Positions 2,982-25,079 of a stretch of 34,062 nt of DNA are shown here, piece by piece. The stretch spans positions 1-34,062 of the forward strand of contig CALCGJ010000110.1 of the NCBI GenBank assembly GCA_937900965.1, in the 5' to 3' direction. A program made the position numbers and the translations under genes. The notes below the pieces were generated by a model that saw only the letters and a list, made by a program, of their open reading frames with translations, was not told where the DNA came from and made no database searches. The stretch comes from an uncultured Bacteroidota bacterium (GTDB lineage: Bacteria; Bacteroidota; Bacteroidia; Bacteroidales; FEN-979). Position 1 is the first letter of the stretch; each line of letters begins with the position of its first letter.

Positions 2982-3023
2982 TTGCCATCATTGCCACCAT
3001 TGCCATCATTGCCATCATTGGGC
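2981..3023. repeat. Left inverted array of 9-nt units (CATTGCCAY)
   Basis: ATTGCCAT CATTGCCAC CATTGCCAT CATTGCCAT CATTGGGC; starts at the last base of the permease stop codon. Confidence 0.9.
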
Positions 3024-3481: not shown

Positions 3482-3524
3482 GCAATGATGTGCAATGATG
3501 GCAATGGTGGCAATGATGTGCAAT
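3482..3524. repeat. Right inverted array (GCAATGATG units)
   Basis: GCAATGATGT GCAATGATG GCAATGGTG GCAATGATGT GCAAT; reverse complement of the 2981-3023 array. Confidence 0.9.
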
Positions 3525-4423: not shown

Positions 4424-4580
4424 AGAGGTTGCTTCACTTCGTTCGCAATGACACGGGAGCCGATTAAAAGAAGGGAGGGGGAAGGGTGGCGGGCGGTGCA
4501 TCGCACCGCCCGCCACCCTTCCCCCTTCTTACCACCAATCGCCGTGTCATTGCGAGGAGCAGAGCGACGAAGCAACCTCG
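4424..4580. repeat. Nested palindromic intergenic repeat (outer arms GAGGTTGCTTC..CGCAATGACACGG / inverse)
   Basis: Left arm ~4424-4456 (agaggttgcttcacttcgttcgcaatgacacgg) is the imperfect reverse complement of ~4542-4580 (ccgtgtcattgcgaggagcagagcgacgaagcaacctcg). A separate 28-bp hairpin with one 4-nt bulge lies inside at 4468-4530. Confidence 0.85.
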
Positions 4581-4697: not shown

Positions 4698-5594
4698 ATG
4701 AATCCTATTATATATCTTGAGGTTTCTTTTTCTTCTGTTCCTGAAGGGTTTGATGAGATTCTGACCGCTGAACTGGCAGAGATAGGATTCGATAGCTTCA
4801 GCGAAGAGGAGCCTCTGTTTCTGGCATATATTCCAGAAGCTGACTTCAATGAAATGGCCGTTCACCAGGTGGTTCAGAAATATCCTGTGCTTAAAGATAT
4901 TATATGGAGCGTTACCCGGATGCCGTATAAAAACTGGAATGAAGTTTGGGAAAGCTCTTACGAACCTGTCCTGATCGCCGGCCGATGTTACATCCGCGCC
5001 CCCTTTCATCCGACATACCCCACCCCCAACCCCTCCCCACTAAGGGAGGGGAGAAAGCCCCCTTCAGGGGGTTTGGGGGTAGCATCCGTTATCGAGATTA
5101 TCATCGAACCAAAAATGTCCTTCGGCACAGCACATCATGAAACCACGGCACTGATGATTGAAGCGCTGCTCGAAGAAGAGTTGAAAGGGCAACATGTTTT
5201 GGATATGGGTTGCGGTACCGGTGTGCTCGCAATCCTTGCTCACAAGCTGGGCGCCAGCACTGTTGTTGCCATTGATAACGATACCTGGGCATTTGAAAAT
5301 GCGTCAGAAAATGTGTTGAAAAATGAGGCTGTCTCTGTCCATGTTATCAAAGGAGATGTAAATGCTATTCCGAAGGAATTGTTTGATTTGATCCTGGCCA
5401 ACATAAACCGGAATACACTGGTTGAGCAAATTTCTGTCTATTCAGAGGCTCTGCAGCCAGGAGGAAGGTTAATACTGAGTGGGTTCTATAGTGAAGATTT
5501 GCCTGATATTAAAGAGTGTGCAGCACGGCATGGTCTCAGCTTCTCAGCTTCCCGGAAGGAAAACAATTGGACAGCAGCCAAATTTAACCGATGA
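4698..5594 (+). CDS. prmA: Ribosomal protein L11 methyltransferase, with an in-frame repeat insertion
   Basis: MSFGTAHHETTALMIEALL, VLDMGCGTGVLAILAHKLGA, LILANINRNTL. Abnormal segment TYPTPNPSPLREGRKPPSGGLGVAS at residues 106-130. Confidence 0.93.
   Translation: MNPIIYLEVSFSSVPEGFDEILTAELAEIGFDSFSEEEPLFLAYIPEADFNEMAVHQVVQKYPVLKDIIWSVTRMPYKNWNEVWESSYEPVLIAGRCYIRAPFHPTYPTPNPSPLREGRKPPSGGLGVASVIEIIIEPKMSFGTAHHETTALMIEALLEEELKGQHVLDMGCGTGVLAILAHKLGASTVVAIDNDTWAFENASENVLKNEAVSVHVIKGDVNAIPKELFDLILANINRNTLVEQISVYSEALQPGGRLILSGFYSEDLPDIKECAARHGLSFSASRKENNWTAAKFNR
5016..5081 (+). repeat. Palindromic element, predicted three-way junction, inside prmA
   Basis: Outer stem CCCCCAA 5023-5029 / TTGGGGG 5073-5079. 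Hairpin B CCCCTCCC 5030-5037 / GGGAGGGG 5044-5051, loop CACTAA. Hairpin C CCCCC 5058-5062 / GGGGG 5067-5071, loop TTCA. Confidence 0.88.
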
Positions 5595-24100: not shown

Positions 24101-25079
24101 CAGGGTACGTTATGCCCGGGAACTTCGGGATAACCCGGAAGATATCGGCAGGATACTGATCCCTGCCATGAGCGGAGCGCAGGTCCCACTCAGTGAAATA
24201 GCTTCTATCGATTATACACGCGGAGCCCAGATGATCAGAAGCGAGAACACATTTCTCGTCGGCTATGTCATCTTCGATAAGATCGCCGGGAAAGCAGAAG
24301 TGGATGTGGTGGATGAGGCAAGAGTAATAATCAGTGAAAAGATTAAGAGAGGTGAATTGATTCTCCCTCCTAATGTCACCTTTAAATTCGCCGGAAATTA
24401 TGAGCAGCAGGTCAGGGCAACCAAACAGCTTGCTGTTCTGATCCCGGTGAGTCTGATCATTATTTTCCTGTTGCTCTTCTTCCAGTTCCGGACAATTACC
24501 GCCTCTTTCATTCATTTCTCCGGTGTCTTTGTGGCTTTCGCAGGAGGATTTATAATGCTTTGGCTCTATAGCCAGGGTTGGTTTATGAACTTCTCCTTTG
24601 CGGGCACCGATATGCGGGAACTCTTCCAGATACACACCATCAACCTGAGCGTAGCCGTGTGGGTGGGGTTTATTGCACTGTTTGGCATCGCCACCAACGA
24701 CGGTGTGATCATGGGAACCTATATCCACCAGGTATTTGAGCATAAAAAGCCCTCTACCGTCTATGAGGTTCAGGAAGCTGTAGTGGAGGCGGGAAAAAAG
24801 AGGGTCCGGCCGGCTATGATGACTGCTGCCACCACGATCATTGCTCTGCTTCCGGTACTTACATCCACCGGGAAAGGAGCCGATATCATGGTGCCGATGG
24901 CTATCCCCACATTCGGCGGGATGATCATCCAGATGATGACCATCTTCGTAGTTCCTGTGATGCAGGCGATGTGGAGGGAAAGAGCTGTTAAGAGGGAAGA
25001 AGGGCGAAGGACGAGGGACGAAGGACGAGGGACGAAGGATGATGGACGAGGGATGATGGACGAGGGAATTGAAAATTGA
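21189..25079 (+). CDS. cusA: CusA/CzcA-type heavy-metal efflux RND transporter
   Basis: MLNKIIGYFLKNRLLSM, DPVPVDAIPDIGENQQIVATEWMGRSPKDIEDQVTYPLSSALLGIPGV, Met-rich MMTAATTIIALLPVL region. Start 21189 (residue 23 of the listed ORF). Confidence 0.94.
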   Translation: MLNKIIGYFLKNRLLSMLILITFIVWGLSTAPFNWNLGFMPRDPVPVDAIPDIGENQQIVATEWMGRSPKDIEDQVTYPLSSALLGIPGVNTIRSTSMFGMSFIYIIFTDDVDFYWSRSRILEKLNSLPSGTLPEGVQPTLGPDATALGQIYWYTLEGRNPETGEPTGGWTPEELRTLQDFYVKYSLATAEGVSEVASVGGFIKEYQVDINPEALKAFGVSMMDVMNAVKKSNLDIGAETIEMNQVEYLIRGLGYIRSLEDLENSVIVAMNNTPVRIKDVARVSFGPAPRRGGLDKEGSEAVGGVVVARYGSNPMEVIDNVKEKIIEIDQGLPQKVLPDGTISKVTVIPFYDRTGLIRETIGTLESALSHEILISIIVILVLVLNLRASIIISGLLPVAVLMTFIVMRYLGVEANIVALSGIAIAIGVMVDVGIIFVENILRHLEMPGNKRAKGPRLLEVIREATTEVSPAVTVALATVVVSFLPVFFMMASEGKLFRPLAFTKTFALTASFILGIVVLPTLSYYILSVRFDRKRVRIGWNTLLILAGIVLMAVWGDWVALGLTAIGINNLLESWLRRKNDNLHNLINIAIILLFATWFLASEWLPLGAHNSAFLNFLFVSAIIALILLLLSIVVKFYEPLLRWCLRNKWQFLSIPLITILFGVVIWLGFNRTFGFVTNTFQVVNLDLRETALWKKSSSAFPGIGKEFMPSLDEGSFLLMPTSMPHTSIEKNLEYIEQLDRGMTAIPEVEMAVGKWGRVNSALDPAPVQMFENTINYRPEFILDENGHRMRFKMNRSGSFILIDSTTYNPAEAGFRIIQADSLIPDRRGEYFRQWREEIRSPDDIWEEIVKVTNLPGLTSAPKLQPIETRLVMLSTGMRAPMGIKVYGPDLQSIEDAGMAFEQAMKEVPSVKPASVFYDRAVGAPYLEITLNREAMARFGMTVSDVQEVLGVAVGGMSLGTSVEGRERFPIRVRYARELRDNPEDIGRILIPAMSGAQVPLSEIASIDYTRGAQMIRSENTFLVGYVIFDKIAGKAEVDVVDEARVIISEKIKRGELILPPNVTFKFAGNYEQQVRATKQLAVLIPVSLIIIFLLLFFQFRTITASFIHFSGVFVAFAGGFIMLWLYSQGWFMNFSFAGTDMRELFQIHTINLSVAVWVGFIALFGIATNDGVIMGTYIHQVFEHKKPSTVYEVQEAVVEAGKKRVRPAMMTAATTIIALLPVLTSTGKGADIMVPMAIPTFGGMIIQMMTIFVVPVMQAMWRERAVKREEGRRTRDEGRGTKDDGRGMMDEGIEN
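25003..25065 (+). repeat. Heptanucleotide array GAYGANG (9 units), translated as the CusA C-terminal tail
   Basis: GGCGAAG GACGAGG GACGAAG GACGAGG GACGAAG GATGATG GACGAGG GATGATG GACGAGG; protein repeat RRTRDEG RGTKDDG RGMMDEG. Confidence 0.95.

Follow-up and report, generated by a model that had tools for sequence, protein, structure and literature searches.

It was found that the prmA gene of an environmental Bacteroidales genome most probably contains a non-autonomous, REPIN/RPE-like palindrome that was inserted into a loop already expanded by repeats, and that is translated as a disordered surface loop tolerated by the enzyme. The window, i.e., the whole stretch of 34,062 nucleotides that was analyzed, carries this element inside the prmA reading frame, as a preliminary description had placed it; the ORF reads through it and the inserted length is a multiple of three (Table 1). 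According to the proposed mechanism, a palindrome composed of two inverted hairpin modules and an outer inverted repeat would spread in the genome, land in the repeat-expanded loop of prmA and be translated as about 22 residues rich in proline, glycine and serine, forming a disordered surface loop that PrmA tolerates. As a few frames of the C/G-rich sequence contain no stops, an insertion into a permissive loop would survive if it preserved the reading frame, and others would be purged. We infer that the 22-residue peptide is present in mature PrmA, that the insert is nearly neutral and that a transposase provided in trans mobilized the element.

Table 1. Features of prmA and its palindromic element in the window, with the element-derived stretch of ValS.
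Feature	Position	Strand	Description and basis
prmA, ribosomal protein L11 methyltransferase, 298 aa	4698..5594	+	Pfam PrmA E=5e-42; NCBIfam NF001785, 319 bits
Heptamer array, left remnant CATCCGACA	5007..5015	+	Homologous site in G004 filled by the array alone
Composite palindromic element	5016..5081	+	66 bp, exactly 22 codons; read as YPTPNPSPLREGRKPPSGGLGV
Outer stem, left arm ACCCCC	5022..5027	+	Pairs with 5075-5080 (fold)
Module A hairpin, CCCCTCCC-loop-GGGAGGGG	5030..5051	+	Fold; compensatory CG/UA variants among copies at one pair
Module B hairpin, AAGCCCCC-TTCA-GGGGGTTT	5055..5074	+	Fold; compensatory CG/UA variants among copies at one pair
Outer stem, right arm GGGGGT	5075..5080	+	Fold
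Heptamer array, right remnant GCATCCG	5082..5088	+	Comparison with G004
Element-derived stretch of ValS			HLTPNPSPEGEGSKSPSGDLGV

The palindrome and the expanded loop of PrmA

The minimum-energy fold of the element is a three-way junction consisting of an outer stem of 6 bp and the hairpins A and B of 8 bp each. The preliminary description had proposed stems of 7, 8 and 5 bp, which was close: the junction and the length of hairpin A hold, but the outer stem is one pair shorter and hairpin B is longer than was stated because A-U and G-U pairs count. The folding energy amounts to -41.5 kcal/mol compared with -32.4 +/- 3.3 kcal/mol for shuffled sequences (z -2.8), the excess being modest because the composition of the element is already very C/G-rich. 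Its dispersed repetition is stronger evidence against chance than its folding energy. The window gave no match to any curated RNA family of Rfam at gathering thresholds.

In the draft genome from which the window originates (G000), prmA is a single-copy gene with one real match only. Between the APFH motif and the strand [DE]I[IV]IEPKMSFG the protein has 28 residues, compared with about 8 in the aligned relatives from other genera, confirming the earlier statement that these motifs are normally only a few residues apart; in Thermus PrmA (1UFK), only 4 residues (84-87) separate the positions that correspond to residues 105 and 131. The insertion is located in a widely conserved enzyme, identified by Pfam and NCBIfam, at a permissive loop that is short in other genera. 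An AlphaFold2 model based on a 12-sequence alignment (mean pLDDT 86.7) assigns a pLDDT below 50 to residues 111-127, which lie between the strands 97-100 and 132-135, and otherwise matches the PrmA fold with the Thermus PrmA entries 3CJT and 2NXC as best structural matches. The insert is predicted to be a disordered loop that connects two strands and immediately precedes the AdoMet domain. The site had been described as the probable inter-domain linker; the model agrees with a loop but not clearly with the inter-domain linker, as it puts the insert between these two strands.

The element is flanked by remnants of a heptamer array with the unit (GCATCCG)n, the site reading CATCCGACA-[66 bp]-GCATCCG, and in the closest species (G004) the prmA loop consists of the heptamer array CATCCGGCATCCGACATCCGGCATCCGGTATCG only, with the palindrome being absent. 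These remnants and the array-only loop of G004 suggest that the palindrome entered an older heptamer array in prmA. In G005 the loop is filled by CACCAGTTCACCAATTCATCAGTTCACCAG and in G002 by a TCATTGCGAGCAAAGCGAAGCAA repeat together with two tandem arrays. Every complete prmA within the genus carries its own, different loop filler; close relatives do not share the segment seen in the window, and since the sister species fill the loop with other repeats, the palindrome is one among several repeat kinds at this site. A contig of G001 (C229) starts at the prmA insertion site, and a search for the N-terminal half of prmA in G001 and G003 did not find it.

How the element arrived in prmA can also be thought of differently. 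Recombination between repeat-bearing sites could have copied it there instead of transposition, which would concern the arrival step only and leave the reading as a translated loop in place. This route is less likely, yet a serious alternative for the arrival: the element lies within heptamer remnants and a number of other copies border on heptamer arrays of a similar kind, but further copies have no adjacent array.

A dispersed family with two hairpin modules

The search for further copies in the genome and its relatives returned 51 full or partial matches in G000, and altogether 52 distinct composite copies were collected, all from the genus with the exception of one (L068) from a genome of a sister genus (G023). 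The element is present in 6 of 6 genus genomes examined, all of them drafts. In most copies, the family consensus comprises module A (CCCCTCYCC-loop-GGRGAGGGG) and module B (AAGYCCCC-TTYA-GGGGRTTT) enclosed by C/G arms, and GTAA precedes module B in most copies; module A is without a clear GTAG/CGTC tag. The outer stem ACCCCC/GGGGGT constitutes terminal inverted repeats. No constant target-site duplication was seen by eye in the flanks of the copies, and the prmA site itself is a repeat array. One pair in A and one pair in B alternate between C-G and U-A among the copies with both sides changing, and the stem variants of A and B are found in all four combinations, mosaic-like. Compensatory change is hence observed at two pairs, but it represents few independent covariation events because both pairs mark subfamilies.

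The full composite is narrow in range, as in a phylum-wide sample of 396 genomes no genome besides G000 passed the threshold of E 1e-12. The sister genus g3 contains weaker copies, mostly of module A, and in this genus A-type hairpins terminate a larger element of about 130 bp; a compact near-symmetrical form is found there too.

As these genomes are drafts, it was considered whether repeats were misjoined into genes by assembly or binning. Contigs do break at repeats: in G000 contig C21 ends and contig C126 begins inside the mtaB copy, and the G001 contig mentioned above begins at the prmA site. Such an artefact is nevertheless scarcely credible as an explanation of the insert, for in-frame copies recur across the genomes of the genus with reading frames continuing through them, and mtaB, uvrA, M14 peptidase, the aminotransferase-SelD-like fusion and cytochrome c have the same sites occupied in more than one species.

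Y1_Tnp/RAYT was rejected as candidate mover after searching G000, its genus and five sister-genus genomes: no A or B module adjoins Y1_Tnp at 7 loci of the genus or at 28 loci in the five sister-genus genomes, within the flanks available in these drafts. Most Y1 transposase genes of the genus have other palindromes alongside, some of them in frame inside the transposase ORF. Two such genes of G000 (L061 1-693 and L062 1312-1932) each possess their own palindrome family around and, in frame, within their ORF.

Copies in frame within other genes

Of the 52 composite copies, 25 are located in frame within ORFs of recognized families. The hosts include prmA, rsmA, queE, purL, mtaB (two species), UbiD-family decarboxylase (two), valS (two species, at different sites), M14 peptidase (two), uvrA (four copies in two species), an aminotransferase-SelD-like fusion (three species), a MurG-type glycosyltransferase (murG) and another glycosyltransferase, a HypD-like glycyl radical enzyme, an amino-acid permease, a cytochrome c and a PHP protein. 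Two frames account for 22 of the 25 copies, 15 being read as SKxPxGxLG ("SKPPSGGLG") and 7 as NPLKGxYS; two further copies are read as TPKxPEG and one as VSPLQGVWG. The collection of copies was ORF-based and favors open frames, for which reason the frame counts alone are no test against frame-breaking insertions. When 22 other copies, most of them not enclosed by a long ORF, were inspected by eye, no gene was obviously split, and copies outside genes are intergenic in appearance. In the aminotransferase-SelD fusion, the orientation of the copies is opposite between species, suggesting that the element entered this linker more than once independently. In uvrA (L134, L117), at least three distinct element sites are found in two species.

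It could be argued that the element has been selected for a function in prmA, as a regulatory RNA structure or as a useful peptide, for instance by slowing translation at the domain boundary. Compensatory variants that keep the stem pairs at two positions would be in line with this, but stem conservation is equally expected if the palindrome is merely the moving form. Moreover, the copies are spread over unrelated genes, with either orientation and in several frames, and the prmA loop of sister species consists of unrelated repeats or a short array, which makes a selected function improbable.

Full-length valS gives one match each in G000, G002, G004 and G005, and ValS is essential. A single NF004349 match of 1117 bits in valS runs through the element. 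Across the species (L137-L142), ValS has two hypervariable loops that are differently filled with repeats in each species: in the loop preceding DPDVMDTWFSSWLWP, G004 has the palindrome, whereas G000, G002, G003 and G005 have other sequence derived from repeats, and the second loop holds a palindrome in G003. As there is a single full-length valS per genome and the G004 copy contains the element, an essential gene appears to be read through it in this species. The essentiality of ValS makes translation through such inserts very likely.

If the mRNA lost the element by excision, or if the ribosome skipped it as it does the byp elements of yeast mitochondria, PrmA would be made without the insert. 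Strong hairpins in coding sequence and the occurrence of copies in essential genes would suit such a process. It would, however, not need the copies to be in frame and stop-free, as the in-gene copies examined are in a search that selected open frames; in addition, the prmA and valS loops of sister species hold plain tandem arrays without hairpin structure, and neither the intergenic appearance of the non-gene copies nor the lack of out-of-frame split genes on inspection by eye fits it. Loss of the element before or during translation is therefore considered highly improbable, and translation as a tolerated loop is preferred.

Beyond the single insertion, it seems rather probable that in this Bacteroidales genus several unrelated repeat families, i.e., A/B doublets, heptamer and other short tandem arrays and repeats of the TCATTGCGAGC type, continually invade the same permissive loops of essential single-copy proteins and replace one another there, the loop sequence of housekeeping enzymes being to a large extent mobile or expanding repeat DNA.

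Relation to known repeat systems

In-frame palindromes are established in Rickettsia and Wolbachia (PMC3733652; PMC2229807). The Rickettsia palindromic elements (RPE) are located in conserved genes, in frame and translated (Ogata et al., 2000, 2002; as described in PMC2229807 and PMC3733652). Intragenic REPs were furthermore catalogued in Opitutus terrae, Rickettsia conorii, Xanthomonas and others (PMC3733652; PMC3116915), and uvrA is a target of intragenic REPs in Opitutus and Thioalkalivibrio (PMC3733652). The preliminary description was hence right to regard in-gene palindromes as established for Rickettsia, but they are reported well beyond this genus (PMC3733652). With Rickettsia, Wolbachia and several REP-bearing bacteria as precedents, the principle is already known; what appears to be new is the lineage, the family of elements and the fact that unrelated repeats use the same loops again. 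A keyword search of the open-access literature found no paper on in-frame palindromes in Bacteroidales, which is not proof of absence.

The element resides in frame in conserved genes whose homologues elsewhere are uninterrupted, as seen in the prmA and valS alignments, by which it qualifies as a protein-coding palindrome. It shares with RPE the translation in frame in conserved genes, the tolerance by the enzymes and the preferred frames. In contrast to RPE of 105-146 bp (PMC2229807), it is a 66-bp A/B doublet in Bacteroidales that shares its sites with unrelated tandem arrays, and by this description it is an analogue only. The proposed equivalence to RPE in Bacteroidetes thus holds for an RPE-like in-frame repeat family, but the architecture is closer to a REPIN/MITE-like doublet than to RPE-1. 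With REP/BIME/REPIN it has in common the many dispersed short palindromes and the inverted doublets encoding 20-30 residues, some of them in repair and tRNA genes including uvrA. It differs from REP/REPIN in that it is not mostly extragenic, with nearly half of the composite copies inside known genes, and in the lack of an adjoining RAYT in the genus and five sister genomes; a clear GTAG/CGTC tag was not seen. Bacterial MITEs such as ERIC and YPAL (PMC2229807) are likewise non-autonomous, with terminal inverted repeats and in-frame fusions, and the A-type hairpins at the ends of the longer g3 element resemble them as well. For the Bacteroidales element, in contrast, neither a target duplication nor a parent transposase could be recognized.

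Protein-coding palindromes are herewith extended to an environmental Bacteroidales genus, including essential genes such as valS and murG. The genus carries the element and unrelated repeats in many household genes, some of them essential, suggesting that genomic repeats keep becoming new protein loops. Because sister species fill the same loops differently, they provide natural before-and-after pairs, from which it may be learned how non-coding repeats become protein, which insert sizes are tolerated and whether a function can be gained. It is also a warning that repeat-derived segments are present in the protein families and annotations of such genomes.

Other repeats in the genome and the window

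In 425 kb of G000 including the window, 18 repeat stretches of several classes lie well inside ORFs of at least 100 aa, a count obtained with an ad hoc motif list in which some ORFs are possibly spurious and the rate may be somewhat high because the sampled contigs were mostly picked for carrying an element. Cyanobacterial STRR are heptanucleotide tandem repeats scattered in the genome; the heptamers of the genus are similarly dispersed, but they have another sequence and also serve as in-frame linker filler and as target of the palindrome. Within the window, heptamer-type arrays are located at 1784-1902 and 24986-25064, the latter encoding the C-terminal tail (RRTRDEGRGTKDDGRGMMDEG) of a CusA-like efflux protein. 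Between the genes upstream of prmA, an inverted repeat of 39 nt with a spacer of 3 nt (4461-4541) is adjoined by a TGTCATTGCGAGGAGC-type repeat (4545-4574), a kind of repeat that the prmA gene of G002 contains in frame. Perfect 27-nt inverted repeats at 2986-3012 and 3492-3518 bracket a four-helix gene of the 23S_rRNA_IVP family (PF05635), as if they formed one insertion unit with it.
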